Shown here one piece after another: positions 49,776 to 64,000 of a stretch of DNA of 64,000 nucleotides. The notes beneath the pieces are model-generated. The model saw nothing but the letters and a program-made list of their open reading frames with translations. It ran no database searches and had not been told where the DNA came from. The translations under genes were made by a program, and so were the position numbers. Every line of letters begins with the position of its first letter. Within the stretch, counting starts at the first letter, position 1. The stretch comes from Lampropedia aestuarii. Lineage in GTDB: Bacteria; Pseudomonadota; Gammaproteobacteria; Burkholderiales; Burkholderiaceae_C. Location of the stretch: assembly GCF_004803635.1 (NCBI RefSeq), contig NZ_SSWX01000008.1, forward strand, positions 1 through 64,000, given 5' to 3'.

Positions 49776-51149
49776 TCACGCCTGCCCACTACTGTCTGCC
49801 CAGTCCTGGGAACTGTGCTGTGCATGCGTTATTGGCAGGACAATCTCAGCCCGCAGGCCGCCGCCCGGGCGTGGCTTGAATGCCAATGAGCCACCAAACC
49901 GCGCAACAATCGCATGCACAATCGAAATGCCCAGGCCTGCGCCATCCTGGCTGCTGCGCCCCTGATCGCCGCGCCAGAAACGCTGGCCAATCTGGCCGAC
50001 TTGCGCACTGGTCAGGCCTGGGCCTCGATCCAGCACCGCAATCGTGCAATGCTGCAACGCCTGATCGACCGATACCTGCAGCTCGACTGCAGCGTCTGTG
50101 CTGGAGTATCGCAGTGCGTTATCCACTAAGTTGCGCACTGCCGTCTCCAGCATCGACCTAGGCACAGCAACGCTGGTGTCTTGATCGAGTTGCACAGACA
50201 GCCGTTGGTAGTCCTCACCGCGGCACTGCTGCAGCGCAGCGTGCACCGCAGCAGAGACGGCGCTGAAGCCCTGCTCCGAATCGGCGCCGGCCTCTGCGCG
50301 GGCCAATACCATCATTTGGTCAAGCGTGCGTCGCAACCGCTTGACGCCTTGCTCTGCGCTGGCCAGGGCCAGTGCCACATCCTCACCCTCGCTGAGCTGG
50401 GCAACCTGAAGATGCGTATCGATCACCGTCAAAGGTGTGCGCAACTCATGTGCTGCGCCATCGGTGAATGCACGCTGGCTCGCCAGTGCGCCGGCCAGGC
50501 GGTGCAGCAATCCATTCATCGCGGCCAGCACCGGCTGCAGCTCAGCAGGAGAATGCCTGAGAACGATCGGCGAAGTGTCATCCGCATGCTTGTCGCGCAA
50601 CTGTTGTGACAAGGCCTTGAGCGGCACCAGGCCACGCCCGATGCCGATCCACAAAGCGGCGAGTCCGCCAAGAAAGGCAATCAGAAAAGGCACACCTGCA
50701 ACACGCAATAGCTCATGGATCAGCACATCGCGCTCATCCAAGCGGTCTGCGGTAGTGACTTGGTAACCATTGGCACGGTGCACATACATGCGCCACAGAT
50801 GGCCTTGCACATTGCGCGTACTAAAGCCTGTGGGCAAACTCTCGAATTCCGAATGCGGGCCTGCAGTGGTGCGCGCCAAGACTTCGCCCCGCAAGGAGCG
50901 GATCTCGCAGGCAATGCCTTCTTCACCACTGACACGCACGGCCTCGGCAAAATCGCCCGTCACCGTGCTCGGCGCCAAGGCCGCACGCTCAAGCAAGCCT
51001 GACACCATGCGCGCTGACATCGCCAGGCGGCCATCGAGTGTGCGGTCCAGATTGGCATGCACGCCGCGCACCATCCAGCCAGCCGCCCCCGCCCAGAGCG
51101 CCAACAGCGCAATCCCCGTGATTATCACGGCACGCAGACGCAAGCTCAT
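49776..51149 (-). CDS. Two-component sensor histidine kinase
   Basis: The 457-residue inner-membrane kinase has a first membrane helix (VIITGIALLALWAGAAGWMV), a periplasmic part of about 120 residues, and a second helix (VAGVPFLIAFLGGLAALWIG). The cytoplasmic side has a HisKA domain with the phosphohistidine in DGAAHELRTPLTV, then HATPase motifs RNLVDNALRYSS, LDRGPGL and GAGLGISIVHAI. It resembles QseC/TctE-type sensors. The start overlaps the stop of the regulator gene (ATGA), so the pair is translationally coupled. The signal is unknown. Confidence 0.93.
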   Translation of the reverse strand: MSLRLRAVIITGIALLALWAGAAGWMVRGVHANLDRTLDGRLAMSARMVSGLLERAALAPSTVTGDFAEAVRVSGEEGIACEIRSLRGEVLARTTAGPHSEFESLPTGFSTRNVQGHLWRMYVHRANGYQVTTADRLDERDVLIHELLRVAGVPFLIAFLGGLAALWIGIGRGLVPLKALSQQLRDKHADDTSPIVLRHSPAELQPVLAAMNGLLHRLAGALASQRAFTDGAAHELRTPLTVIDTHLQVAQLSEGEDVALALASAEQGVKRLRRTLDQMMVLARAEAGADSEQGFSAVSAAVHAALQQCRGEDYQRLSVQLDQDTSVAVPRSMLETAVRNLVDNALRYSSTDAAVELQVSVDQALQHCTIAVLDRGPGLTSAQVGQIGQRFWRGDQGRSSQDGAGLGISIVHAIVARFGGSLAFKPRPGGGLRAEIVLPITHAQHSSQDWADSSGQA

Positions 51150-51814
51150 GGTGTCAGCCTCCAGCCGAGGCGGTAGCCCAGTCCCCTGGCGGTCTCAATG
51201 GCATCGCCGCCCAGTTTGCGGCGGATATTATGGATATGCACGTTCAGCGCATTGCGGCCAATTTCTGCCTCCAGACCAAACAGGCGCTCGTTGAGCGTCT
51301 CCACAGAGACCCAGCGCCCAGAGGCATTGGCCAGCTGCGCCAGCACATCGACCTCACGGCGTGACAAGCTGACTGGCACACCATCCAACCAAGCCAGACC
51401 GCTGTCTGGCTCCAGCTGCAGTGGGCCCGCCTCGATCCGTTGTGCGGCACGTCCTTGCGTGCGCCTGACCAAGGCGTGCAAGCGCGCTGCCAGCTCACGC
51501 AAATCAAAGGGCTTGACCATATAATCATCTGCACCACCATGCAGGCCCTTGAGTCGGTGCTCTATGGCGTCGCGGGCTGTCAGAATCAATACAGGCAAAT
51601 CAGGCTCAACTGCACGCATGCTGGCCAATAAATCCAAGCCATCCCGATCCGGCAAGCCCAGGTCCAGCACCAGCACATGAAAGCTCTGCTGGGCCTGTGC
51701 GGCTTCCGCCTCTTGTGCAGAACCCACGTGCCGAACCTCCATGCCATGTTGGCGCAAGCCCACGACAACCCCCTTGCCAATCAGCTCGTCATCCTCTACC
51801 AGCAGCACCCGCAT
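51146..51814 (-). CDS. OmpR-family response regulator
   Basis: The ATG at 51814 gives 222 residues. The receiver domain has the acidic pair in VEDDE, phospho-acceptor Asp51 in LVLDLGLPDRDG, and Lys in MVKPFDL. The C-terminal winged helix shows LSRREVDVLAQL and NVHIHNIRRKLG. The family activates or represses promoters of outer-membrane, redox or transport genes. It is divergent from dsbD across 148 bases, so the thiol-disulfide genes are plausible targets. A GTG two codons upstream is a less likely start. Confidence 0.93.
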   Translation of the reverse strand: MRVLLVEDDELIGKGVVVGLRQHGMEVRHVGSAQEAEAAQAQQSFHVLVLDLGLPDRDGLDLLASMRAVEPDLPVLILTARDAIEHRLKGLHGGADDYMVKPFDLRELAARLHALVRRTQGRAAQRIEAGPLQLEPDSGLAWLDGVPVSLSRREVDVLAQLANASGRWVSVETLNERLFGLEAEIGRNALNVHIHNIRRKLGGDAIETARGLGYRLGWRLTP

Positions 51815-51962
51815 CTTCACCCCATTTGGACTTGATCAGACGCTGATGGTATGCAAAAAAAACACTTTGTACAGCGGTAGCAAATACTGGCTCAGTGCTT
51901 TAGTCTCGCTTAAGTTAGGCCATGCATGATCCGGCACTCTTGATTTAAAGGATGCAGATCTG

Positions 51963-53813
51963 ATGCTCTATCGGCGATTACTGACCATCGTTGTGCTGTG
52001 TTCATGCGCGCTCAGCAGCGCGTGGGCGCAAGGCATATTCTCGTCGTGGAATGGCGGTGAGAATCAATTTCTGGACGCAGCCGAGGTTCTCACACTCAAG
52101 CCTGCACAGCAGCAAGGTGATGTATTCACCATTGACAGCCAGATTGCTGAGAACTACTACGTGTATCGCCATGCGATCAAGCTGGTAGATCACGCTGGCA
52201 ATGAGATTGCCCTGGACCTGCCGGCAGGGCGCAATCAATATGACGAGTTTTTTGGCAATACAGAAATCTATACCGACCAAGCACTCGCACTGTCTTTTCC
52301 CGATACCGTCACAGGTCCGCTGACCTTGCACTGGCAAGGCTGTGCGGAAGCGGGCATTTGCTATCCACCGCAAACCACCGAGCTGCGCTTGCCAGCCAGC
52401 GAAGCAGTCAGCGCAGCAGCCAGCAGCATGCCCATGTCCGTGTCCATGTCTACGGCCGAGGCCGCGCCACAAGCTGCAGCGCCAGCGCCCAGCCCCCCAG
52501 AGGCCCTGGCCGAAGACCAGGCCGCCGCACAACAACTGGCCACGCTGGGCCCCTTCTGGGGAATCTTGCTGTTTTTCGGCTTTGGCTTGCTGCTGGCCTT
52601 TACGCCGTGCTCGCTGCCAATGATCCCAATCATCTCCAGCATGGTCGTAGGCAGTCAGGCCAAGCCACGCCGCGCCTTTGCCCTCAGCCTGTCGTATGTC
52701 GTCGCCATGGCAGGCACTTACGCCATCGTAGGTGTAGCAGCAGCCATGGCCGGTGCCAACCTGCAAGCCACGCTGCAATCGCCCTGGCTTTTGAGCGCCT
52801 TTGCGGTGTTGTTCCTGGTACTGGCCAGCTCCTTGTTTGGTCTGTTCGAGTTGCGACTGCCCGCATTTTTGATGAACCGGCTTCAATCTGCAGGCCAAGG
52901 CCAGTCAGGTGGTAGTTGGACGGGCGCGGCCATGCTGGGCGTTTTATCGGCTCTGCTGGTCGGTCCCTGCATGACCGCACCACTGGCTGGAGCCTTGCTG
53001 TACATTGGACAAACCGGCAGCGCCGCTTATGGCGCGATGGTCTTATTTGCGCTGGGCCTGGGCATGGGCTTGCCTTTGCTGGCGATTGCCGTATTTGGTG
53101 CCCAGGTTCTGCCTCGCCCCGGCGCGTGGATGGACCGCGTACGGGTGGCCTTTGGCTATGTCATGGTCGGCATGGCGCTGATGATGCTGGCGCGTTTCTT
53201 ACCCGCTACGCTCAGCCTGGCGCTTTGGGGTGCATGGCTCTTGTCGATCGCAATCGGGCTGCTGGCCTGGGGCCAGGCCCTGGTCAACCAATACCGGCTG
53301 GTCTGGACGCTGCGACTGGGCGCGGTCTTGACCAGCCTATGGGGCACACTGATGGTGGTTGGCGCAGCAGCCGGGGGCGACTCCTTGCTGCAACCCTTGG
53401 CCCAGCTGCGCAATCCATCCAACACCAACGCCCCCTCCTCCCCAGCGTTCACTTATCTCCAGGCCAAAACCATTGAAGATGTGCAGGCCCATATCACGCA
53501 AGCAGGCGCCAAAGGGCAATGGACACTGCTGGACTTTTATGCCGACTGGTGTGTCAGCTGCCATGTGATTGAGCGCCAGGTCTTTGGTGACCCCACGGTG
53601 GCAGCTCGCCTGGCCCGCATGCAGGTCGTCAGACCCGATGTGACCCGCAATGACGCAGACGACCAGGCCCTGCTCAAACACTGGGGCGTATTGGGCCCGC
53701 CCACACTCATTCTGATCGGGCCAGATGGCAAGGAAAGACGTGAGTTGCGCAGTATTGGCGAGCTTGACGCCCGCGCCTTTTTAGCGCGCTTGGACCAGGC
53801 AGGCACCCCATGA
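51963..53813 (+). CDS. dsbD: Thiol:disulfide interchange protein DsbD
   Basis: DsbD carries electrons from cytosolic thioredoxin across the inner membrane to periplasmic partners. The 616-residue protein has a signal peptide, an N-terminal alpha domain with the cysteine pair in GCAEAGICYPP (about residue 127), an eight-helix beta domain with cysteines in FTPCSLPMIPI and LVGPCMTAPL, and a C-terminal thioredoxin domain with WCVSC. All six redox cysteines are present. AAGGA is ten bases before the ATG. It heads an operon with a TlpA-like and a DsbG-like gene, with ATGA overlap. Confidence 0.95.
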   Translation: MLYRRLLTIVVLCSCALSSAWAQGIFSSWNGGENQFLDAAEVLTLKPAQQQGDVFTIDSQIAENYYVYRHAIKLVDHAGNEIALDLPAGRNQYDEFFGNTEIYTDQALALSFPDTVTGPLTLHWQGCAEAGICYPPQTTELRLPASEAVSAAASSMPMSVSMSTAEAAPQAAAPAPSPPEALAEDQAAAQQLATLGPFWGILLFFGFGLLLAFTPCSLPMIPIISSMVVGSQAKPRRAFALSLSYVVAMAGTYAIVGVAAAMAGANLQATLQSPWLLSAFAVLFLVLASSLFGLFELRLPAFLMNRLQSAGQGQSGGSWTGAAMLGVLSALLVGPCMTAPLAGALLYIGQTGSAAYGAMVLFALGLGMGLPLLAIAVFGAQVLPRPGAWMDRVRVAFGYVMVGMALMMLARFLPATLSLALWGAWLLSIAIGLLAWGQALVNQYRLVWTLRLGAVLTSLWGTLMVVGAAAGGDSLLQPLAQLRNPSNTNAPSSPAFTYLQAKTIEDVQAHITQAGAKGQWTLLDFYADWCVSCHVIERQVFGDPTVAARLARMQVVRPDVTRNDADDQALLKHWGVLGPPTLILIGPDGKERRELRSIGELDARAFLARLDQAGTP

Positions 53814-54646
53814 TCAGTGCAGGACCATTTCCCATTCAATTGCTCGTTGTTGTCGCTTGTGCATTGCTGGCCTGGCTGACTGCTTATCTGACCGCCAGGC
53901 GCCTGCCCAATGGCGGCGGCAAGGCAACTGGCGCGCTGATGTTCGATGTTCTGCTGTGGGGGCTTGTCGCCGCACGCATCGGCTACATCATTGCATGGTG
54001 GCCAGAGTATGCTGCAGCCCCTTGGTCGATGATCGCCATTGGTGACCAGGGCTTTTTGTGGTGGGTAGGCGCTCTGGCTGCATTGCTGTACGTGCTTTGG
54101 CGCACGCGTTTGCAACGCCGGCTGCGCCTGCCGCTGCTGGTGGGCCTGTGCGCAGGACTGGTGTGCTGGTGGGCCGCCAGTGCCTCACTGGAGCACATGC
54201 GCCGCGCCATGCCACCATTGCCCGCGTTGCAGCTGGCCAAGCTCGACGGACAACCAGTAGCGCTCGACAGCTATCTTGGCCAGCCTGTGGTTCTGAACCT
54301 GTGGGCAACGTGGTGCCCTCCGTGTCGCCGCGAAATGCCGGTCTTTGAACAGGCCCAAGCCGAATATCCAGGCATCGCCTTTGTGTTGGTCAACCAAGGC
54401 GAAAGCGCCCAGCAAGCACATGCATTTTTGACGGCACAAGGCCTGCAACTGAGCGATGTCTTGCTAGATCCGCGCTCTCAAACCATGCAGGCGATAGGCT
54501 CACAAGGGCTGCCCACGACCTTGTTCTTTGATGCCACTGGGCGTCTGGTGGACAGCCATATGGGCGAGCTCTCAATGGCCAGCCTCAAAAGCACCCTCAC
54601 ACGCCGCTTTGCACCACACCAACTTGCCAACCCTCACAAGGAATGA
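53810..54646 (+). CDS. TlpA/ResA-like thiol-disulfide protein with N-terminal membrane domain
   Basis: The 278-residue protein first has a membrane domain of about four helices (residues 1-125) whose ARIGYIIAWWPEY and QGFLWWVGALAALL segments resemble part of prolipoprotein diacylglyceryl transferase. A TlpA-like thioredoxin domain follows with catalytic WATWCPPCRREMP (about residue 160) and cis-proline in GLPTTLFF. The thioredoxin domain should face the periplasm. The start overlaps the dsbD stop by ATGA, so it probably receives electrons from DsbD. The membrane part likely only anchors or orients it. Confidence 0.88.
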   Translation: MISAGPFPIQLLVVVACALLAWLTAYLTARRLPNGGGKATGALMFDVLLWGLVAARIGYIIAWWPEYAAAPWSMIAIGDQGFLWWVGALAALLYVLWRTRLQRRLRLPLLVGLCAGLVCWWAASASLEHMRRAMPPLPALQLAKLDGQPVALDSYLGQPVVLNLWATWCPPCRREMPVFEQAQAEYPGIAFVLVNQGESAQQAHAFLTAQGLQLSDVLLDPRSQTMQAIGSQGLPTTLFFDATGRLVDSHMGELSMASLKSTLTRRFAPHQLANPHKE

Positions 54647-54648
54647 AT

Positions 54649-55422
54649 ATGCGTCTACGACAATCACACATCTGTTGCGCCATGATCGCCAGCCTCTTGC
54701 TGATGGGCAGCTTCTGCCGAGCCCAGGCGGGCGAGCAGCCACAGGTTCTTACCGCTTTGCAAGCACAAGGCCTGACCATCATGGATGAGTTTGAAGTCGG
54801 GGGTGGCCTGCGCGGCTTTGCCGCAGCCTCGGCAGATCGCCCCATGGCGGTCTATATCACCAGCGACGGCCATGCCATTGTCGGCACACGCTTGAACAGC
54901 CAAGGTGAAACAGTCGATCAAGCCATCTTGCACCAGCTGGCCAGCAAACCCCTCAGCGACATGCAATGGGCGCAACTGGAGGCGGCCAATTCAGTCCTGG
55001 ATGGACAAGCAGACGCGCCGCGCATTCTCTATACATTCACAGACCCCAATTGCCCTTATTGCCACAGCTTCTGGGAGGCAGCACGCCCCTGGGTTGATGC
55101 AGGCAAGGTGCAAATTCACCACATCATGGTGGGAATCATCAAACAGGACAGTGCTGGCAAAGCCGCAGCCATCCTCAGCGCCGCCGACCCATCGGCTGCG
55201 CTGCTCGAGCATGAACAAAACCACGCCAAAGGGGGTATTGCTGCGAGCCAGGATATTCCAGCAGATATTCTCCAGACCCTCAGCGACAACAAGCAGCTGA
55301 TGCTCAGCATGGGCTTTCGAGGCACGCCTGGCATTGTCGTGCGCGGCCCTGATGGCATTCTGACCAAATTCAGTGGCATGCCACAAGGCAATCAACTCGA
55401 GGAAGCGCTGGGGCCGCGCTAA
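54649..55422 (+). CDS. dsbG: DsbG/DsbC-like periplasmic thioredoxin-fold protein
   Basis: The 257-residue protein starts at 54649 with AAGGA six bases upstream; a start at 54643 would overlap the site. It has a signal peptide (CAMIASLLLMGSFCRAQA), an N-terminal dimerisation region, and a thioredoxin domain with CPYC in TDPNCPYCHSFWE (about residue 130) and the cis-proline loop RGTPGIVV. DsbG proteins reduce sulfenylated cysteines or isomerise disulfides and are kept reduced by DsbD, encoded in the same operon. The stop is the TAA at the head of repeat copy 6. Confidence 0.9.
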   Translation: MRLRQSHICCAMIASLLLMGSFCRAQAGEQPQVLTALQAQGLTIMDEFEVGGGLRGFAAASADRPMAVYITSDGHAIVGTRLNSQGETVDQAILHQLASKPLSDMQWAQLEAANSVLDGQADAPRILYTFTDPNCPYCHSFWEAARPWVDAGKVQIHHIMVGIIKQDSAGKAAAILSAADPSAALLEHEQNHAKGGIAASQDIPADILQTLSDNKQLMLSMGFRGTPGIVVRGPDGILTKFSGMPQGNQLEEALGPR

Positions 55423-55727: not shown

Positions 55728-57104
55728 GTGACTCTCAATACTGCCCAATTACTGGCTGACGAAGCCAAGTACTGCTCGTTTGGCGACACCGTCCATTACG
55801 TCAATCCCCCCAAAATCTTCACCGGCTGCGAAGGCAGCTACATGTATGACGAAGAGGGCACGCCTTACCTCGATCTGCAGATGTGGTATTCGGCCGTGAA
55901 CTTTGGCTACAAGAACAAGCGTCTTGAAGACAGGATGATCGAGCAACTCAAAGAGTTGCCACAGGTAGCCAGCCAGTACCTGCACCCCACCAAGATCGAG
56001 CTGGCCAAATTCATCGCCGAAGATGCGAAGAAAAAATGGGGCCACGACGGCCGGGTGCATTTCAACGTCGGCGGTGCACAGGCGATTGAAGACTCGCTCA
56101 AAGTCGTGCGCAATGCCTCTGGCGGCAAAAGCCTGATGTTCGCTTTTGAAGGGGGCTACCACGGCCGCACCTTGGGCGCATCCAGCATCACCTCCAGCTA
56201 CCGCTACCGCCGCCGCTTTGGCCACTTCAGCGACCGCGCGCAATTCATTCCCTTCCCCTATCCGTTCCGTCGCCCCAAGGGCATGACCTCGGAAGAGTAT
56301 GCGGACTCCATCGTCAAGGAATTTGCGCGCAAATTCGAGAACGAATACCACGCAGTCTGGGACCCGAAAACCAACCAGTGCGAATACGCGGCCTTCTACA
56401 TCGAGCCCATTCAAGGCACGGGCGGTTATGTCGTGCCACCAGCGAACTTCTTCACTGGCCTGAAAAAAGTACTGGATGACCACGGCGTGCTGCTGGTCGT
56501 CGACGAAATCCAAATGGGTTTCTGGCGCACCGGCACACTGTGGTCGGTCGAGAACTTTGGCATCAAGCCCGATGTGCTGGTGTTTGCCAAGGCCCTGACA
56601 AACGGCTTGAACGCCTTGTCCGGTCTGTGGGCGCGTGAAGAGCTGATCAACCCGACCATTTTCCCACCAGGGTCGACACACTCGACCTTCGCCTCCAACC
56701 CGCTGGGCACAGCCTTGGGTCTGGAAGTGATGAAAATGACGCACGAGATCGACTTCGGCAAACAGGTGCGCGAAGCGGGCGCTTACTTCCTCGACGGTTT
56801 GAAGCAACTGCAAAAACGCCACAAGGAAATCGGCGATGTCGACGGCATGGGCCTGGCACTGCGTGCCGAGATCTGCACCGAAGATGGCTTCACGCCCAAT
56901 AAGGCGCTGCTGGACAAGATGGTCGATCTGGGCCTGGAGGCCAAGCTCGAATACCAGGGCCAAAAACGCGGCCTGGTACTGGATGTCGGCGGCTACTACA
57001 AAAACGTGATCACGTTTGCGCCTTCGTTGATGATCTCGCGCAGCGAAATCGACGAAGCTCTGGTACTGTTGGACCAGTTGATCACACTGGCCAAACAGGC
57101 TTGA
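55728..57104 (+). CDS. Class III (PLP-dependent) aminotransferase
   Basis: The 458-residue protein begins at a GTG and has the class III pattern: GGYHGRTLGASS near residue 140, YIEPIQGTGGYVV near 225, LLVVDEIQMGFWRTG near 255, and the PLP lysine in VFAKALTNGLN near 285. Related enzymes move amino groups from omega-amino acids, diamines or lysine to keto acids. The usual GxGR-type ends and length (430-460) are met. It is the first gene of a three-gene operon with a GNAT/FemAB-like and an arginase-fold gene. Substrate cannot be assigned. Confidence 0.9.
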   Translation: MTLNTAQLLADEAKYCSFGDTVHYVNPPKIFTGCEGSYMYDEEGTPYLDLQMWYSAVNFGYKNKRLEDRMIEQLKELPQVASQYLHPTKIELAKFIAEDAKKKWGHDGRVHFNVGGAQAIEDSLKVVRNASGGKSLMFAFEGGYHGRTLGASSITSSYRYRRRFGHFSDRAQFIPFPYPFRRPKGMTSEEYADSIVKEFARKFENEYHAVWDPKTNQCEYAAFYIEPIQGTGGYVVPPANFFTGLKKVLDDHGVLLVVDEIQMGFWRTGTLWSVENFGIKPDVLVFAKALTNGLNALSGLWAREELINPTIFPPGSTHSTFASNPLGTALGLEVMKMTHEIDFGKQVREAGAYFLDGLKQLQKRHKEIGDVDGMGLALRAEICTEDGFTPNKALLDKMVDLGLEAKLEYQGQKRGLVLDVGGYYKNVITFAPSLMISRSEIDEALVLLDQLITLAKQA

Positions 57105-57114
57105 TCCAAACCCA

Positions 57115-58188
57115 ATGACACCGGTTGAAACGGCTGGGCCGTCGCGCAACCAACTCGAGCCTTCGGCGCTGATCCGGCTGTTTGCCGTGCATCCGCCCGA
57201 GGGCTTTGTCGTGCATGCCGACTGGCCGGCAGTGGCCTTCACCGCGCCATTTGACCTGCTGACCACGGCCGATGACGCGCTCAAGCAAACCCTGCACAAA
57301 CTACCCGGTGGTGCTTGGCTCAGCAAGCGGCTCACACTGACCACCGATTTTGTCGGCACCACGGTGACCGAATACGCGGTGCTACCAGCAACGCCCAGCG
57401 CGCAGCAATTGGCTGCGCAACTGCGCCAGCGTGCTGGCCAGCGCATGCTGACCATCGTCAAGGATTTGCCGCAGGACTCGCCGCTGCTGCCACCGGCCGA
57501 CAATGAGGCCGCCAAAACACTGGCCCAAGCCTTGTCTGCGGCAGGTTTTTTGCTGGTCGAAGGCCAGGCGCTGGCCTATGTGCCGATTGACTTTTCCAGC
57601 ATCGACGAGTATCTGGGGCGGCTGTCCAAAAGCCGCCGCCAAAACCTGCGCCGCAAGCTCAAAAGCCGCGCGCAAATGGTGATTGAGCGCATCCCCACCG
57701 GCGAGGCCTTCGCCAGCGATGCGCAAGTCGACGCCTACTACGCCCTGTTCGAGGCGGTCTACGCACAAAGCGAGATCCACTTCGACAAACTCACGCGCAG
57801 TTTTTTTGCCGCCCTGCTACGCGATGCCAGCAACCACGGCATCGTGTTCGAGTACCGCGCAGAGGACACCGGCGCCTTGCTGGGCTGGAACCTGTGCTTT
57901 GAACATGAAGGCCGACTGATCGACAAATACATTGGCCTGGCCTACCCGCAGGCACGCGAAGTGAACCTGTACTTTGTCAGCTGGCTGGTCAATCTGGAGT
58001 ACGCCATCGAGCGCGGCCTAAGCCACTACGTGGCCGGCTGGACCGACCCCGAGGTCAAGGCCCAGCTGGGCGCCAGCTTCACCTTCACGCTGCATGCGGT
58101 ATTCATCCGCAACCCGCTGCTGCGCGCATTGGGCAAACGCTTTGCCAGCCATTTCGAGAGCGACAAGCAATGGAGCGAGCAAACATGA
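57115..58188 (+). CDS. GNAT/FemAB-like N-acyltransferase
   Basis: The 357-residue protein has the C-terminal FemAB-like acetyltransferase fold: LGRLSKSRRQNLRRKLKSRAQ near residue 165, RSFFAALLRDA near 225, and the GWNLCFEHEGRLIDKYIGLAYPQ core near 260, followed by NLYFVSWLVNLEYAIERGL. Proteins of this group join acyl or amino-acyl groups to amines or peptides. The N-terminal part is not recognised. It follows the aminotransferase by ten bases and its stop overlaps the next start (ATGA). Acyl donor and acceptor are unknown. Confidence 0.75.
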   Translation: MTPVETAGPSRNQLEPSALIRLFAVHPPEGFVVHADWPAVAFTAPFDLLTTADDALKQTLHKLPGGAWLSKRLTLTTDFVGTTVTEYAVLPATPSAQQLAAQLRQRAGQRMLTIVKDLPQDSPLLPPADNEAAKTLAQALSAAGFLLVEGQALAYVPIDFSSIDEYLGRLSKSRRQNLRRKLKSRAQMVIERIPTGEAFASDAQVDAYYALFEAVYAQSEIHFDKLTRSFFAALLRDASNHGIVFEYRAEDTGALLGWNLCFEHEGRLIDKYIGLAYPQAREVNLYFVSWLVNLEYAIERGLSHYVAGWTDPEVKAQLGASFTFTLHAVFIRNPLLRALGKRFASHFESDKQWSEQT

Positions 58189-59078
58189 TGCGCCCGTTGG
58201 TGCTGGATGTGGACCAGTCCGTTGGCCCACTGCCCAATGAACTGCGCCTGTCGCTCACCGAATGGCAAGAAGGCATTCGCTTTGGCTCGTCACTGGCGCG
58301 CTACCGGCGCTTTAGCGACCATGTGGCAGCGCAGCTGCCTGCGCAGTACGGCACGGCCTGGATGGGCAGCGGCGATTTCCACCACCTGTCGTGGCTGTTG
58401 ATTGAGCGCTGCATTGCACAAGGGGGCTACTCGGCAGCCAAGCCGCTGCGTATCGTGGTGCTGGACAACCACCCGGACAATATGCGCTTTCCCTGGGGCG
58501 TGCATTGCGGCTCCTGGGTGCGGCGCGTGGCCCTACACCCGGCGGTCTCGCATGTGCATGTTGCAGGCATCACCTCCAGCGACATTGGCGCAGGTCACGC
58601 CTGGGAAAACTATTTGGCCCCCCTGCGCCAAGGCAAGCTCAGTTACTGGAGCTGCGGCGTAGACACCGGCTGGAGCCGTTGGGTGCAGGCGCAGTCGGCA
58701 TTTCGCAATTTTGACAGCGTCAGCGCACTGGCCAAGGCGCTAGGCCGCCTGCTGGCAACCGAACACCAGCCGACCTACCTCAGCATCGACAAGGATGTGT
58801 TCGCAGCCGATGTGGTCACAACCAACTGGGACCAAGGCCAGATGCGCGAGCAAGAAGGCATGGCCATCATCGCTGCGCTGCAAGGCCAATTGGTGGGCAG
58901 TGACATCACCGGCGATATCTCGTCATGGCGCTATGCCGCTTGGTGGAAACGGCTGATGAGCGCAGGCGACGGGCAAGACACCAGCGTGGATACCCAGACA
59001 CTGGCACACGCCCAAGTCGGCCAGCATGCGCTGAACCAGCGGCTATTGCAGGCCTTAGCATCCAGTCAGATCGCTTAA
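58185..59078 (+). CDS. Arginase-fold metal-dependent hydrolase-like protein
   Basis: The ATG at 58185 overlaps the previous stop and gives 297 residues. The arginase-type metal ligands are all found: His in GDFHH (63-67), Asp94, His96 and Asp98 in DNHPDN, and Asp202 and Asp204 in SIDKD. The spacing fits the arginase/agmatinase superfamily, but the surrounding motifs (GGDH and DAHxD) are altered, so this is a diverged branch. It may cleave an amidine, guanidine or amide made by the neighbouring aminotransferase and acyltransferase. A stretch of 10 bases separates it from the convergent DegT gene. Confidence 0.72.
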   Translation: MMRPLVLDVDQSVGPLPNELRLSLTEWQEGIRFGSSLARYRRFSDHVAAQLPAQYGTAWMGSGDFHHLSWLLIERCIAQGGYSAAKPLRIVVLDNHPDNMRFPWGVHCGSWVRRVALHPAVSHVHVAGITSSDIGAGHAWENYLAPLRQGKLSYWSCGVDTGWSRWVQAQSAFRNFDSVSALAKALGRLLATEHQPTYLSIDKDVFAADVVTTNWDQGQMREQEGMAIIAALQGQLVGSDITGDISSWRYAAWWKRLMSAGDGQDTSVDTQTLAHAQVGQHALNQRLLQALASSQIA

Positions 59079-59088
59079 GCGGGCGCGC

Positions 59089-60318
59089 TCAAGCCCTCTG
59101 CGTGAACTGCTGCAAGGCCTGCAGCAAGTCGGCAAACTGCGCATCGCTGAGCCAGGCGCTATTGCTCACCGCAACCAGTCGCTGCGCCCAATCGCGCGCC
59201 TGCCAGGCCGCATCGTGCCGGGCCGCGCCCAGCAATGGCGCATACTGCGCATAGTCGGGCAGCACATGCACAAACGGCAAGGACAAGCCCCAGCCCGAAG
59301 CCCAGTGCGACTGCATCAACGCATCGCGCATGGCCTGGTTGGGCATGCGCAGCGCGATCACTGGCCAAATGCCTTGTGCCTGTGCCGCGGCATCACCAAC
59401 GACCTCAATACCCGGCAAAGCCGCCAGCTGCGCGCTGCGGCGCAGCGCCTGCTGCTCGGCTGCCTGCCAATGCGCGGCAAGCCGTGCCAGGGCCCGAACG
59501 CCCACACGGCGGCGCCAGGCCCCCAATGTGTGCTGTGGAATCTGGGCGTCAAAATCATCGCCTGCGGCCTCGATCCAGTCGGCACGCGCCAGGCTCTTGC
59601 GCAGCGGCGCGCCATAAACCGCATCCATGGTCGCAGGGCGGAACAAGGCCGCATAGCCCAGCAACTCGGCACTGCGGCGGCATTCCCACCAGCGGCTCAC
59701 CCGCACCGTAGCCTGGTGCGTGGCACGCAGCGCCGCCAGCATCGCAGCATCACGCGCGACCAGTACGCCGCCTTCATAGGTCGTCAAGCCTTTGCCAACG
59801 GCCATGCTGAACAGGCCCACATCGCCTTGTAAACCAACGCTGTGGCCGTTGACCCGCGCGCCCAAGGCTTGCGCCGCATCTTCAATCACGTATGCGCCCA
59901 CAGCCTGCGCGCAATGCCGCGCCAGCGCCACATCGGCGACGCGTCCGGCCAAATGCGTGGGCAGCACCGCCAGCGTCTGCGCACTCAGCAGGCCACGCAG
60001 CGCGTCTGCATCCATATCCAGGCTGTCTTGGGCCAAATCACACAAGCGAATTTGCAGCCCACATTGCGCCACGGCCATGGCCACCAGCGGACAGGTATAA
60101 GCGGGCACAATGACTTCGCCGCGCGTGGGCTGCAGTTGCTGCAGCGTGCGCAAGGCCACCATCAGCGCCGACGTGCCAGAGCATTCCAGCAGCACGCCCG
60201 GCACGCCCAACCAGGCGGCCAGCGCGCGATCCAACTGGGCATCGCCCCAAGGCCATAGGTCGCGCCATTGCAAAGGCAGGCCTGCTGTAGGTGGGGTTGT
60301 GATACGGGCAGAAGTCAT
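59089..60318 (-). CDS. DegT/DnrJ/EryC1/StrS-family aminotransferase
   Basis: The ATG at 60318 gives 409 residues of a PLP aminotransferase: VIVPAYTCPLVAMAV near residue 80, THLAGRVADV near 130, EDAAQALGARVNG near 155, and the PLP lysine in FSMAVGKGLTTYEGG near 185. Such enzymes usually aminate keto-sugars but also act on other aldehydes and ketones. It is the last gene of a minus-strand operon and faces the class III aminotransferase operon. Upstream extension to 60465 is not conserved. The usual sugar epimerase or dehydrase partners are absent. Confidence 0.85.
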   Translation of the reverse strand: MTSARITTPPTAGLPLQWRDLWPWGDAQLDRALAAWLGVPGVLLECSGTSALMVALRTLQQLQPTRGEVIVPAYTCPLVAMAVAQCGLQIRLCDLAQDSLDMDADALRGLLSAQTLAVLPTHLAGRVADVALARHCAQAVGAYVIEDAAQALGARVNGHSVGLQGDVGLFSMAVGKGLTTYEGGVLVARDAAMLAALRATHQATVRVSRWWECRRSAELLGYAALFRPATMDAVYGAPLRKSLARADWIEAAGDDFDAQIPQHTLGAWRRRVGVRALARLAAHWQAAEQQALRRSAQLAALPGIEVVGDAAAQAQGIWPVIALRMPNQAMRDALMQSHWASGWGLSLPFVHVLPDYAQYAPLLGAARHDAAWQARDWAQRLVAVSNSAWLSDAQFADLLQALQQFTQRA

Positions 60319-60373
60319 GCAGGGATTGTCGCACTGTGGTGCAGGCGGGCCAGGCCGCCGGCATGAAACCCTG

Positions 60374-60829
60374 TTAGCGGGCAGACTCAGCGAGCTGGGC
60401 TGCGCTGGCGCTGGTAGAGCCAGCGCCAGCATGGCCAATGGCCTCGCCCTGCTCGTCGCTGTCATCGGTCTCGCTCAGCGCCAGGCAGGCAATACCGGCC
60501 ATGATGAACAAGCAGCCGACCACTTGCGGCCAACCAATGTCTTCGCTAAACAAATAGTGCGAGACCACCAGCACCGAGATAATTTCCAAGTGCGAGGCGG
60601 CAAAGGCCGGGCCAATCGGCGCGCGCTTGAGCAGACTCATCCAGGTGAAGAACGCGCCGATGTAGCCAACAAAAGCGCCATAAATCCACGGCTGGCTGAA
60701 CACCCGCCACAGCCACGCCGCCGAAAATTCCAGCGGCAGTGCGGCGTCGCCCGCCATCTTGAAGCTGATCTGGGCCAGTGTGTCAAAAGCCATCAGCACC
60801 AAAAAGCCGATGATGTAGAAACGTCTCAT
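60374..60829 (-). CDS. Small EamA/SMR-type membrane transporter, partner 2
   Basis: The 151-residue protein has four membrane helices (GFLVLMAFDTLAQISFK, WIYGAFVGYIGAFFTWM, AASHLEIISVLVVSHYLF and VVGCLFIMAGIACLAL), as in half-sized EamA/EmrE-like carriers. The C terminus is extended by an acidic and Ala/Ser-rich tail. The gene lies four bases after its partner, so the two may form a heterodimer. Small multidrug-type pairs export amines, polyamines or lipid-linked sugars. The actual cargo is unknown. Confidence 0.8.
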   Translation of the reverse strand: MRRFYIIGFLVLMAFDTLAQISFKMAGDAALPLEFSAAWLWRVFSQPWIYGAFVGYIGAFFTWMSLLKRAPIGPAFAASHLEIISVLVVSHYLFSEDIGWPQVVGCLFIMAGIACLALSETDDSDEQGEAIGHAGAGSTSASAAQLAESAR

Positions 60830-60833
60830 CGCA

Positions 60834-61208
60834 TCAGCCTTTCAGTCCCACTACGGCCACGCCAATCGACACCAAAATGATGCCGGCCACGCGCAGCGGC
60901 GCGAGTTTTTCCTTGAAGAAAATGCGCCCGGCGATCATGATCGCGACGATATTGATCGAGCCCAGCAGCACGCCGTCGGACAGCGGCACCAGCGATAAAA
61001 ACGCCAGCCAGGCCACAAACTCAACGATGTAGCACACCCCACCAATCCAGATCCAGGGTCTGGCCAGCATGAAGCGCCAGCGCGCCATGCCATCCAAGGC
61101 CAGCGGCGGCTCGCTGGCAGCGGCCTTGAACGCCAGCTGGCCGCCACTGTCGACCAGCACATTGAGCACCCACAGCGTGATGACCAGTGGAGACAAATCA
61201 CTTCCCAT
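60834..61208 (-). CDS. Small EamA/SMR-type membrane transporter, partner 1
   Basis: The 124-residue protein has four membrane helices (VITLWVLNVLVDSGGQLAFK, WIGGVCYIVEFVAWLAFLSL, LLGSINIVAIMIAGRIFF and VAGIILVSIGVAVVGL). The glutamate in the second helix (YIVEFVAW) is at a different place from the EmrE Glu14. The start overlaps the end of the hydrolase gene by 11 bases, and the second partner follows by four bases. Pairing suggests one heterodimeric flippase or exporter serving the cluster. Confidence 0.8.
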   Translation of the reverse strand: MGSDLSPLVITLWVLNVLVDSGGQLAFKAAASEPPLALDGMARWRFMLARPWIWIGGVCYIVEFVAWLAFLSLVPLSDGVLLGSINIVAIMIAGRIFFKEKLAPLRVAGIILVSIGVAVVGLKG

Positions 61209-62145
61209 GCGGCGCTACCTCACTCTGAATGCCCGCAATGCGCGCCACAAACGCGTTGACACGCGCAATCACCGTGCGGCGTTCGCGGTCAATCGTGATC
61301 ATGTGGTAGCTGTTGTCCAGCAGCACCAGCTCGACCGGTGCGTGCACAGCGCCGCGCTGGATGGCGTAGGCGTTGGCGACCGAAGAGATATCGTCTTCTT
61401 TCGCATGGATCACCAAACACGGCGCGCGCAGATCGCGCAAATGCGCCTTCACTTGCGCAGACAGGCGGTGCAGCTCAATCACCGACCACCATGGGTTGCC
61501 AGGTAGGCCAGCGGCTGCACTGTCGCCACTGTGCATTTGCTCAACAATGCGCGCGCGCAGTGCCTCGTCCTTGATGCCGTAAGGCGGCGCCTCCATGAAA
61601 ACACTTGTGCGACCAATGCCCAGCCAGCGGAACAAGGGCAGCAAAAACGACAATTTGGTGTAGCGCGGCATGCTCCAGCCGTCGTAGCGGAATGTGGTGG
61701 ACAGCGCTGCCACACCGGCCACCTGGCCCGGTTGCGATTGGGCCACGGCCAGCGACAGCAAAGCGCCCATCGACAGTCCGCCAACCACCACGCGGTCGAC
61801 CTGCTGGGCAAAACGCGCCAGGCCCGACTCGACGCTGGCGAGCCAATCGCGCCAGCTCACTTGCACCAAATCATCCATCGTGCCGCAATGACCGGCCAGT
61901 TGCACCGCATACACGCTAAAGCCCTGGCGGTTCAGCCCCTTGGCCAGCACGCGCATTTCGGCCGGCGTGCCAGTCAGACCATGCACCAGCAGCACACCGG
62001 TGCGCGCCGCAGGTCCAAAGCCCGGCATGACAAATTCGTGCTCGGTCACGCACAGCGCCTCCAGCGCTTGTGCATCAATGCCACTGCCCTGTGCATCCCC
62101 AGCTGCACTGCTGCGCTGGAGCTCGAATCCACTCTCAACCTTCAT
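61198..62145 (-). CDS. Alpha/beta hydrolase, carboxylesterase (Est30)-like
   Basis: The 315-residue protein has the oxyanion HG motif LVHGLTGTPAEM near residue 55, the nucleophile elbow GLSMG near 123, an acidic residue in HAKEDDISS near 250 and His in NSYHMITID near 280. The Est30/carboxylesterase group acts on medium-chain esters or monoacylglycerols. It overlaps the HAD gene by ATGA and the transporter gene by 11 bases, so it is inside the operon. Possible roles are removal of an acyl group or transfer of the product. Confidence 0.85.
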   Translation of the reverse strand: MKVESGFELQRSSAAGDAQGSGIDAQALEALCVTEHEFVMPGFGPAARTGVLLVHGLTGTPAEMRVLAKGLNRQGFSVYAVQLAGHCGTMDDLVQVSWRDWLASVESGLARFAQQVDRVVVGGLSMGALLSLAVAQSQPGQVAGVAALSTTFRYDGWSMPRYTKLSFLLPLFRWLGIGRTSVFMEAPPYGIKDEALRARIVEQMHSGDSAAAGLPGNPWWSVIELHRLSAQVKAHLRDLRAPCLVIHAKEDDISSVANAYAIQRGAVHAPVELVLLDNSYHMITIDRERRTVIARVNAFVARIAGIQSEVAPHGK

Positions 62146-62840
62146 GCCAGCGCCTCGTGGCCCAGCACGACTTTGTCCAGCAACGCAGTGGCTGCTTCAA
62201 AATTCGTGAACGGCGCATGCGCAATGCCCTGCTGCTCGCAATACGCGATCAGCTTGTACTTGGCCAGCACAAAATCGGCCTTGTGAGAGACACAGAAATC
62301 CGAGGTGCTGTCGCCCACATACAGCACGCGGCCATGCACAGCCTGCTGCTCGGCCAGGCGCTCGCACTTGCAGTTGCCACTGGCACGTGTGCAACGTGCA
62401 CTGGCCCACGGCGACTCCAGGCGCCAGCGGCGCTCACTGACTTGCACCAAGTGGTTGGCAATCACCTCCAGATGGCCCAGGCCATGGCGTTCCAACACAT
62501 GGCGAATCGCGTAATCGATGCCGTCGCTGACCACCTGCACCTGCATGCCATGCGCGGCAGCGGCGGCCACAAAGCCGGCAAAACCGGGATCGATCTCCAG
62601 CGTGTCCAGCAGCGCCTGCAATTGCGCCTCGTTCATGTCCAGCAGCGCGACCTGGCCCTTCATGCACTCGCGCGAGCCAATCTCGCCGCGCTCCCATTGC
62701 TCTTCAAGCTCAACCCAGCCGGGCAAGCCAAAGCGCGTAAGCAGGGTGTCGGTCACGTCGAGCACGCTGATCGTGCCGTCAAAATCCGATTGCACCATCC
62801 AGCCTGGAGCCACAGGCAACAGTGGGGTTGGCTCATTCAT
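62142..62840 (-). CDS. HAD-family phosphatase, MtnX/SerB-like
   Basis: The 232-residue protein has the HAD nucleophile motif SDFDGTISVLD near residue 18, motif II VVSDG near 103 and motif III/IV YVGDSTSDFCVSHKAD near 175. It has the small cap and spacing of the MtnX/phosphoserine phosphatase branch that removes phosphate from a small metabolite. It overlaps both neighbours (8 bases with the HlyD gene, 4 with the hydrolase gene). It probably dephosphorylates a pathway intermediate; the substrate is unknown. Confidence 0.87.
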   Translation of the reverse strand: MNEPTPLLPVAPGWMVQSDFDGTISVLDVTDTLLTRFGLPGWVELEEQWERGEIGSRECMKGQVALLDMNEAQLQALLDTLEIDPGFAGFVAAAAAHGMQVQVVSDGIDYAIRHVLERHGLGHLEVIANHLVQVSERRWRLESPWASARCTRASGNCKCERLAEQQAVHGRVLYVGDSTSDFCVSHKADFVLAKYKLIAYCEQQGIAHAPFTNFEAATALLDKVVLGHEALA

Positions 62841-63795
62841 AAAAAGTCACTCTCACGTTCTGCCCCACGCGCGCATTCGCCGGGGGCTGGTCAAACGCCA
62901 GCACGCTTTCAACAATGCGCACCGGGCCGCGTTGGGTATCGTCTTGCAAATTGGCCGGGCCATAGACTGGGCTGATGCGCAGCACCCTGGCCTCGGGCAG
63001 AGCAGCCGCCGCCGAGCTGGCGGCATCGCCATCGATCACGACAGTGGCACGCATGCCCTCGCGCACGGCACTGACATAGCTTTCATTGAGCTCGGCCCGC
63101 ACAATCAAGGGTTTATGCGGCAGCAGTGTGACCACTGGCTGCGCTGGGCTGACCTGGCTGCCCGCATGCGTGGCCACGTGCACCACCGTGCCCGCCTCAG
63201 GCGCGCGCAGCTCCAGGCGTTTTTGCAAGGCGCGCAGCTGCTCCATTCTGGCTTGCGCGACTTTGGCTTCGGCCTTGGCCAGACTGGCTTCGGCTTCGGC
63301 ATCGCGCAGTTGCTGCGCGGCTTCGTCCACACTGCGCGCATCGGCCGCACCTTCTTGCGCGGCCGTTTGCCAGCGCGTGAGCATGGCTTTGAGTGGCTCA
63401 ACACGCGCAGCTTTGGCCTTTTCACGTGCCTGGGCCAATTGCCATTCAGACTCGGCCACGCTCAGGTCTGCGCGCGAGATGTCATCGGCCAGGCGCAGCA
63501 GCACCTGCTCGCGCTGCACGCTTTGGCCATCCTTGACAGCCAGCTCCTGCACCAGGCCATCGACACTGGGGGCCAGCTCAATCAGGCCGCCTTCGACTTC
63601 AATTTTGCCGCGTGCGATGGCCACCGGGGCCTGGCTTTGCTGTGTGCTGGAGGCAGTTTGCGCCGCAGCAGCCGCTGGTGCCGCGGTAGCCGCCTCGGCC
63701 TTGTCAGAGGGCGAGCAGCCAGCCAATAGCGCGGCGGCCGCCACCAGCGCGATCGCACTGCCGATGGGTGTTGACAGCTTGTGGGACTGGTTCAT
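62833..63795 (-). CDS. HlyD-family periplasmic adaptor lipoprotein (DevB-like)
   Basis: The 320-residue protein has a lipoprotein signal (ALLAGC, lipidated Cys near 27). An Ala-rich linker follows, then a biotinyl-lipoyl-like piece (GKIEVEGGLIELAPSVDGLVQ), a long alpha-helical hairpin with coiled coil (about 110-195), and the second lipoyl half (LELRAPEAGTVVHVATH). This architecture matches adaptor proteins that join an ABC exporter to the outer envelope. Its start overlaps the stop of an ABC ATPase gene by ATGA, so the pair belongs to one exporter, as in DevBCA systems. Confidence 0.88.
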   Translation of the reverse strand: MNQSHKLSTPIGSAIALVAAAALLAGCSPSDKAEAATAAPAAAAAQTASSTQQSQAPVAIARGKIEVEGGLIELAPSVDGLVQELAVKDGQSVQREQVLLRLADDISRADLSVAESEWQLAQAREKAKAARVEPLKAMLTRWQTAAQEGAADARSVDEAAQQLRDAEAEASLAKAEAKVAQARMEQLRALQKRLELRAPEAGTVVHVATHAGSQVSPAQPVVTLLPHKPLIVRAELNESYVSAVREGMRATVVIDGDAASSAAAALPEARVLRISPVYGPANLQDDTQRGPVRIVESVLAFDQPPANARVGQNVRVTFYE

Positions 63796-64000
63796 TGCAT
63801 ATTTCCTTGGTCATTGCCCTGCGCAGCGCTTTGGCGCCAGTCGTTGCGAATCGCGCCATCTTCCATGCTCAGCACGCGATCGGCATGGCGCACCAGCCGC
63901 GGGTCATGGCTCACGCACAGCACGGTTGTGCCATGGCCGCGTGCGGCGCGGTGCAAGATATCGATGACACGCTGGCCGCTTTCGGCATCGAGCGCGCTGG
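63792..64000 (-). CDS. ABC exporter ATP-binding protein, C-terminal end (cut by window edge)
   Basis: The 68 readable residues begin with the D-loop SALDAESGQ, then the H-loop VLCVSHDPRLVRHADRVL and an ending GAIRNDWRQS. This is the last part of an ABC ATPase of the DevA/LolD/MacB type, transcribed toward the HlyD gene, whose start overlaps its stop. The Walker A and signature motifs lie beyond the window. A permease gene should lie further upstream, outside the window. Confidence 0.85.
   Translation of the reverse strand, partial: SALDAESGQRVIDILHRAARGHGTTVLCVSHDPRLVRHADRVLSMEDGAIRNDWRQSAAQGNDQGNMQ

Follow-up and report, generated by a model that had tools for sequence, protein, structure and literature searches.

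We describe a gene cluster that begins at position 55728 of a 64,000-nucleotide stretch of the Lampropedia aestuarii genome (contig NZ_SSWX01000008.1, positions 1 to 64,000; hereafter 'the window') and runs past the window's end along the same 183,743-base contig. The cluster is widespread and apparently uncharacterised, and it combines enzymes of known families for biosynthesis and export. Its twelve structural genes, with regulators, are met again in many genera from plants, soil and water, on chromosomes and on plasmids. We give about even odds to the reading that these genes form an inducible pathway whose product, an amphipathic compound that contains an amine and is most likely an aminolipid, is exported to the outer membrane or to the outside of the cell. 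An original prediction, made from the letters of the window, had proposed an undescribed system for making and exporting an amine-containing product. A conserved biosynthesis-export unit is indeed what we find, although fatty-acid genes that recur in relatives, and that suggest a lipid, had escaped the prediction. Full-text searches of open-licence literature aimed at the gene set, or at aminolipids of these bacterial groups, found no description, in keeping with the claim of novelty.

Nine genes lie between 55728 and 63795, and their coordinates and families were borne out by family-model scans, with the arginase match falling just under its Pfam cut-off. A rightward operon on the plus strand encodes a class III aminotransferase dependent on pyridoxal phosphate (AT3; 55728-57104, GTG start; PF00202, E=4.3e-73), a FemAB-like tandem GNAT acyl/aminoacyl transferase (57115-58188; PF04339, E=1.3e-12; PF13480, Acetyltransf_6, E=4.8e-10) and an arginase-fold metallohydrolase (58185-59078; PF00491, E=5.5e-4, 19.9 bits, below the gathering score of 22). 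It converges on a leftward operon on the minus strand, which begins with genes for a TolC-type channel (65736-67238) and a permease with FtsX and MacB_PCD domains (64594-65739), both beyond the window, and for a DevA-like ATP-binding cassette (ABC) ATPase (63792-64589, of which the 3' part, 63792-64000, is in the window; DevA model, E=3.2e-65, below cut-off). There follow genes for a HlyD/DevB-type periplasmic adaptor (62833-63795; PF13437, E=9.1e-14), an MtnX-like HAD-IB phosphatase (62142-62840; TIGR01489, 99.6 bits, above the cut-off of 81.55) and an alpha/beta hydrolase resembling monoacylglycerol lipase and Est30 (61198-62145; PF12146, E=8.3e-23). Two half-size EamA transporters come next, an ArnE-like partner (60834-61208; PF00892, E=5.4e-5, and ArnE model, E=1.6e-5, both below cut-off) and an ArnF-like protein (60374-60829; PF00892, E=6.2e-8; ArnF model, E=6e-5, below cut-off), and the operon ends with a DegT/DnrJ/EryC1 aminotransferase gene (59089-60318; PF01041, E=4.2e-40).

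The prediction of two convergent operons was thus right in layout, but the window's end cuts the leftward operon, of which half had been seen, and the regulators beyond had been missed. These are a response regulator gene divergent from the TolC gene (67499-68224; AdeR model, E=4.7e-75, below cut-off) and, with it, a sensor kinase gene (68209-69381) whose nearest models, BaeS/SmeS (E=2.8e-48) and AdeS, are matched below their cut-offs. The repeated ATGA overlaps that had been noted are present: ATGATG at 58185 joins the GNAT and arginase-like genes, leaving the latter's ATG at 58185 or 58188, and coordinates give four-base overlaps at the phosphatase/hydrolase (62142-62145), adaptor/ATPase and permease/TolC junctions. 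The DegT start is uncertain, at 60318 or at the listed ATG at 60465. The latter would overlap the neighbouring gene by 92 bases, and comparison with a 417-residue relative from Xanthomonas sacchari makes the ATG at 60318 the more likely. A promoter scan gave three sigma-70-like sites where 2.7 were expected and 19 terminator-like sites where 13.9 were expected, and nothing usable.

Relatives were sampled with an alignment of arginase-like proteins as query (A1), against a set in which each species is represented by a single genome. At least 592 stretches matched, at least 499 of them encoding a relative at E<=1e-3, and the best 80 loci were kept; these lie mainly in Comamonas, Delftia, Acidovorax/Paracidovorax, Xylophilus, Variovorax, Rhodanobacter, Dyella, Luteibacter and Pseudomonas luteola/asuensis. 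Genes were tallied by tblastn, with coverage of at least 35% and bit-score floors of our choosing, in preference to gene orders, in which long overlapping frames had hidden genes. Twenty-one loci are shorter than 20,800 bases, and gene absences there may reflect contig ends; counts for the 59 full-length loci are accordingly given after those for all 80. GNAT and arginase-like genes are present throughout (80; 59), and are accompanied by AT3 (64; 50), DegT (64; 50), the two EamA genes (64 and 62; 51 and 51), hydrolase (63; 52), HAD phosphatase (58; 48), adaptor (53; 43), ATPase (49; 42), permease (46; 41) and TolC (46; 41). Among accessory genes, a FabF-like ketosynthase (KAS) and an acyl carrier protein (ACP) occur in the same 42 loci (32 of the full-length ones), followed by the regulator (18; 16), a cyclopropane fatty acid (CFA)-type synthase (17; 13) and the kinase (13; 11).

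A separate recount of the 80 loci supplied the figures for adjacency and completeness. All twelve structural genes (AT3, GNAT, arginase-like, DegT, two EamA, hydrolase, HAD, adaptor, ATPase, permease and TolC) stand at one place in 40 loci, the GNAT gene directly precedes the arginase-like gene in all 80, and a convergent DegT gene comes next after the latter in 53. Conservation of gene order had been named as the check on the system, and the order is kept across Comamonadaceae, Rhodanobacteraceae, Pseudomonas luteola and Xanthomonas sacchari and is rearranged in rhizobia. Given that the same families recur in the same order in other species, the block is not a chance grouping.

The loci that lack part of the set are informative as well. 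Where the locus has no DegT gene, a DegT relative (49-67% identical) is encoded elsewhere in nine of the ten genomes searched, and where AT3 is missing, an AT3 protein (75-76% identical) is found elsewhere in seven of eight. Sixteen second loci were found and eight of them were read. Two in Xylophilus (L132 and L133), which are on contigs equal in length to that of the first locus and by coordinates lie about 11-13 kb from it, carry kinase, regulator, TolC, permease, ATPase, adaptor, HAD, hydrolase, both EamA genes and DegT, that is, the window's entire second operon plus the regulators. Another (L135) runs from TolC to DegT with HAD missing, two (L134 and L139) hold hydrolase, EamA, EamA and DegT, and those of three Dyella genomes (L136-L138) hold AT3, HAD and the exporter on contigs that differ in length from those of the first loci. 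In Luteibacter (L037), the genes from TolC to HAD stand together with AT3, KAS, ACP, GNAT and the arginase-like gene, and the hydrolase-EamA-EamA-DegT block lies about 108 kb away. Because separated parts are retained in the same genomes, there is good evidence that they act for one product.

These observations bear on the simplest alternative, in which two or more unrelated units, such as a small operon for catabolism and another for drug efflux, are adjacent by chance. Its appeal is that the two strands form separate convergent operons that lie apart in some genomes. However, conservation over 80 loci, and the retention of separated DegT and AT3 genes in nine of ten and seven of eight genomes, make it very improbable. 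A set that recurs in many genera, both chromosomally and on plasmids, and that genomes retain even in separated parts, probably makes something useful.

Occurrence near the host is patchy. The arginase-like protein has no match in any of nine congeners or in 30 further relatives, and a search for AT3 at E<=1e-150 found it in none of the nine congeners. The right-hand flank of the cluster is conserved in one of them (G004) (83.5% over 69731-73399), and the 19.5 kb examined there contain no DNA match to the cluster. Wider surveys used the A1 alignment at E<=1e-20, counted the window's own genome and scored no more than 7 or 11 first-look candidates in each genome, and therefore give lower bounds: the arginase-like gene is in at least 15 of 200 genomes of the host family and in at least 11 of 299 in a phylum-wide draw. 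The expectation of conservation across Burkholderiales has to be qualified accordingly. The pattern fits repeated gain and loss, and the arginase-like gene was also found on 47 plasmid records.

Plasmid-borne versions were read from Xanthomonas sacchari, Rhizobium, Agrobacterium, Phyllobacterium, Roseomonas, Aureimonas and Bartonella. No DegT gene is annotated in the Rhizobium, Agrobacterium and Phyllobacterium stretches read, and in Roseomonas and Aureimonas AT3 is replaced by a different class III aminotransferase that carries the annotation glutamate-1-semialdehyde aminomutase. The Bartonella plasmid has only AT3, GNAT and the arginase-like gene of the set. After this trio, on the opposite strand (L004:15472-17999), are genes for an AlgX-like SGNH hydrolase and an MBOAT acyltransferase, with no second operon annotated nearby. 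A further locus (L116), in a stretch of 20 kb, has, of the set, only a DegT relative besides the GNAT/arginase-like pair, and a haem-oxygenase-like protein gene (PF14518; L116:6824-7498) lies 2.5 kb from the pair. A Comamonas metagenome version has about 3 kb with two extra genes between its CFA and DegT genes (L028:12245-15300).

Among the enzymes, AT3 is highly conserved. It is 74-93% identical in the 64 loci that carry it, 77% identical to a Bartonella plasmid protein, 73.5% identical to one from an X. sacchari plasmid and, in a separate comparison, 69-73% identical in the X. sacchari, Rhizobium, Agrobacterium and Phyllobacterium versions, and what it makes is therefore probably the part of the molecule that stays constant. 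The HAD-IB phosphatase, whose family profile matches 2fea (E=1.1e-28), passes only the subfamily cut-offs TIGR01489 and TIGR01488. We rejected assignment as the MtnX phosphatase of methionine salvage, as the protein scores 81.1 bits where the curated equivalog model requires 303.2. Given this subfamily-level match, and given that in 30 of 80 loci the HAD gene is the one immediately ahead of AT3, the intermediate may be a phosphorylated amine. The prediction had proposed the order amination, N-acylation, dephosphorylation and hydrolysis; more plausibly, the phosphatase acts after the aminotransferase.

The GNAT protein is predicted to adopt a tandem GNAT fold (predicted local distance difference test score, pLDDT, 90.1), and its PF04339 score is above the cut-off. 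Here and for the arginase-like protein, statements on the closest fold apply among the matches listed. The closest is the streptothricin-type enzyme Sba18 (Z 18.4, root-mean-square deviation 3.1, 255 residues aligned), followed by FemX (Z 17.2), MprF (Z 17.1), mycothiol synthase (15.0) and N-myristoyltransferases (about 13), which fits an aminoacyl or an acyl group as donor. The protein shares its tandem fold with the FemX/MprF/Sba18 transferases (Z 15.1-18.4), but the aligned parts are just 7-16% identical, and unlike them it stands alone, with no strongly hydrophobic segments in a simple scan. We know of no FemX/MprF/Sba18-type enzyme encoded beside an arginase-fold enzyme. The host genome encodes, on another contig, a second, full-length PF04339 protein (436.6 bits; L096, contig C4:9922-11061), and Caulobacter, among the control genomes, also has a PF04339 match.

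A ceramide N-acyltransferase was considered for this protein and rejected at the sequence level, by way of E. coli YghO and not Caulobacter bCerS, with hhalign probabilities against YghO of 0.45% and 0.10%. One published study names ECD_02850 of E. coli as a possible N-acyltransferase (PMC9386255), and from its neighbouring genes we take yghO to be this locus tag. The bacterial ceramide cluster (Spt, CerR and bCerS; the yghO region in E. coli) resembles the present one in having a specialised ACP (here in 42 of 80 loci), an N-acyltransferase and a product bound for the outer membrane, a destination that we presume here. It differs in its serine palmitoyltransferase, which the window's cluster lacks.

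For the arginase-fold enzyme, residues are numbered from the 296-residue form that starts at ATG 58188. Its predicted model (pLDDT 91.6) matches proclavaminate amidinohydrolase with Z 19.8. The dinuclear metal ligands (H65/H66, D93, H95, D97, D201 and D203) are invariant in 42 of 42 aligned proteins and in 10 of 10 of a diverse set. Position 106 is histidine in all 42 and in nine of the ten, with asparagine in Roseomonas, and it may correspond to His141 of arginase I, the catalytic histidine of that enzyme, a pairing drawn by reasoning and not from an alignment. The position of arginase Glu277 holds the acid that recognises guanidine. In a low-score sequence-profile alignment it falls on position 223, which is H in 23, Q in 8, E in 6, G in 3 and D in 2 of the 42 proteins, and E, H, Q, Y, T, A, R, Y, Y and T in the diverse set. 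Given that the metal site is kept but the guanidine-reading acid is not, the enzyme is probably not a ureohydrolase but rather a hydrolase of some other C-N bond.

The likeness to the ureohydrolase superfamily extends to the fold and the metal ligands, and possibly to the catalytic histidine. The differences are DKD in place of DxDxxDP, a TNWDQG motif, the variable guanidine-reading position and the window protein's PF00491 score, which lies under the cut-off of 22 where relatives exceed it (Rhizobium 37.8 bits, Roseomonas 28.2). The arginase-fold protein probably has a new reaction. We also considered catabolism by a ureohydrolase and a transaminase, leading from a guanidino acid to an amino acid and on to a semialdehyde; the variable position 223 disfavours it, as do the flippase-like pair, the exporter and the recurring fatty-acid genes.

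The hydrolase's family profile matches the thermostable monoacylglycerol lipase 7e0n (E=1.1e-47), with aligned catalytic residues S125 (nucleophile), D251/D252 (acid) and H281. Of seven hydrolases aligned, four have a serine nucleophile (GLSMG) and three, from Rhizobium, Agrobacterium and Phyllobacterium, a cysteine (GICVG; L006:15538-16350, L008:14814-15575 and L013:11959-12774). The small EamA proteins have one to four hydrophobic segments by a simple hydropathy scan. Adaptor, ATPase, permease and outer-membrane channel are encoded together, as in the DevBCA exporter family, and every score is below its curated cut-off (DevA 219.8 of 295.8 bits, DevB 47.8 of 129, DevC 41.5 of 290.35). DevBCA-HgdD exports heterocyst glycolipids (PMC6161253). 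The present exporter has the same make-up of adaptor, separate ATPase, FtsX/MacB-type permease and TolC-type channel, and is likewise presumed to export an envelope lipid; it differs in its scores and in being tied to amine chemistry and not to glycolipid synthesis.

Several genes found with the cluster in relatives act on acyl chains. KAS, ACP, CFA-type synthases and desaturases make or alter such chains, and in addition to the KAS-ACP loci counted above, there are 12 of 80 loci in which the gene right after the arginase-like one encodes a CFA-type synthase. The other five of the 17 CFA-like loci are in Dyella, with a weaker relative about 9 kb off that we took for a bystander and left out. 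In four of the six rhizobial versions read, the operon itself includes genes for both a desaturase and a CFA synthase. An MipA-family protein is encoded near the cluster in 12 of 80 loci, and one Agrobacterium version lies beside genes for a phosphoethanolamine (PEtN)-lipid A transferase and a diacylglycerol kinase. These neighbours, together with an ArnT-like transferase in four of 80 loci, speak for a link to the envelope. These acyl-chain genes, the lipase-like hydrolase and the DevBCA-like exporter lead us to infer a lipid product.

In the pathway we envisage, AT3 would aminate a small oxo-compound that probably carries a phosphate, which would then be taken off by the HAD-IB enzyme. The FemAB-like tandem GNAT would form an amide on that amine, with a fatty acyl or aminoacyl group as donor, and the arginase-fold dinuclear metal enzyme would hydrolyse a C-N bond of the resulting intermediate. 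A second amine could be added by the DegT enzyme. The two half-size EamA proteins may act as a heteromeric flippase, and the monoacylglycerol-lipase-like hydrolase may trim or transfer an acyl group. Export of the product would fall to the adaptor-ATPase-permease-TolC machine, and the envelope-stress-type two-component pair would control the pathway.

A number of observations weigh against an exported aminolipid. The lipid clue comes from relatives and not from the window's own version, where no fatty-acid or acyl-chain gene is present at the locus. KAS and ACP were not found in 38 of 80 loci, nor an in-cluster CFA gene in 68, some of these loci being clipped at contig ends. The nearest solved folds of the GNAT protein are transferases that depend on aminoacyl-tRNA and not on fatty acyl donors, and YghO has no Pfam match at E<=0.01 and no detectable relation to the GNAT protein. 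MacAB-like exporters also move non-lipids. The search for separated genes failed in one of ten genomes for DegT and in one of eight for AT3, and a search of open-licence literature for aminolipids of these bacterial groups found no link to the cluster.

An alternative is a secreted small natural product, such as an antibiotic, signal or metallophore, built on a diamine, only decorated by the fatty-acid genes and exported by the tripartite pump. Patchy occurrence (at least 11 of 299 genomes in the phylum and 15 of 200 in the family, own genome counted), absence from the nine congeners, the 47 plasmid records and the closeness of the GNAT fold to a streptothricin-type peptide synthase (Z 18.4) would all be expected of such a compound. 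However, the window's cluster proteins include no non-ribosomal peptide synthetase or polyketide synthase module, and the flippase-like pair, the lipase-like enzyme and the adjoining envelope-stress-type regulators sit poorly with it; we hold this alternative to be possible but on the doubtful side.

Attachment of an amine or amino acid to a lipid or polymer that the envelope already contains (lipid A, peptidoglycan or a phospholipid), in the manner of Arn or MprF and lowering surface charge under envelope stress, seems unlikely. It would account for the ArnE/ArnF-like pair (weak matches), the DegT enzyme, whose wide family includes ArnB, the presence of MprF and FemX among the best GNAT folds, the BaeS/AdeS-like kinase and the PEtN-lipid A transferase beside the Agrobacterium version. 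It would also account for an ArnT-like transferase in four of 80 loci, all Rhodanobacter (L044:11081-12721, L049:10870-12588, L059:10892-12532 and L079:5722-7317). In the first three of these, the gene lies directly between the arginase-like and DegT genes, and the L044 protein matches the ArnT model with E=4.4e-29, below cut-off. Yet the other 76 loci have no ArnT-like match, and lipid A or phospholipid modification needs no export pump. The Arn pathway itself was rejected, as relatives of ArnA, ArnC, ArnD and ArnT are missing among the window's cluster proteins scanned. The likeness to Arn lipid A modification thus consists of the DegT-family aminotransferase, the ArnE/F-like pair and the four ArnT-like proteins, whereas the cluster adds AT3, GNAT, the arginase-fold enzyme, HAD and the pump.

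Within the exported-aminolipid reading, a bolder proposal, which we regard as speculative, is that the product represents a new class of proteobacterial envelope aminolipid, in which a transferase of the FemX/MprF fold forms the amide, possibly with aminoacyl-tRNA as donor, and an enzyme of the arginase fold that works beyond guanidine chemistry then processes it. If this is true, the arginase and FemX/MprF folds would gain a new joint pathway, and the ureohydrolase superfamily a new lipid-linked reaction. If the product is an outer-membrane aminolipid, proteobacteria would have one more envelope lipid with which to tune charge or barrier. Unidentified aminolipids have been reported for these bacterial groups, and such a product might account for part of them.

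Other genes flank the cluster on its left side. A further kinase and response regulator lie upstream at 49776-51820. Divergent from this pair are three thioredoxin-type genes that, by reading of their sequences, encode a DsbD-like protein (51963-53813), a TlpA-like protein (53810-54646) and a DsbC/G-like protein (54643-55422), the last with just weak matches, in six of the nine congeners.

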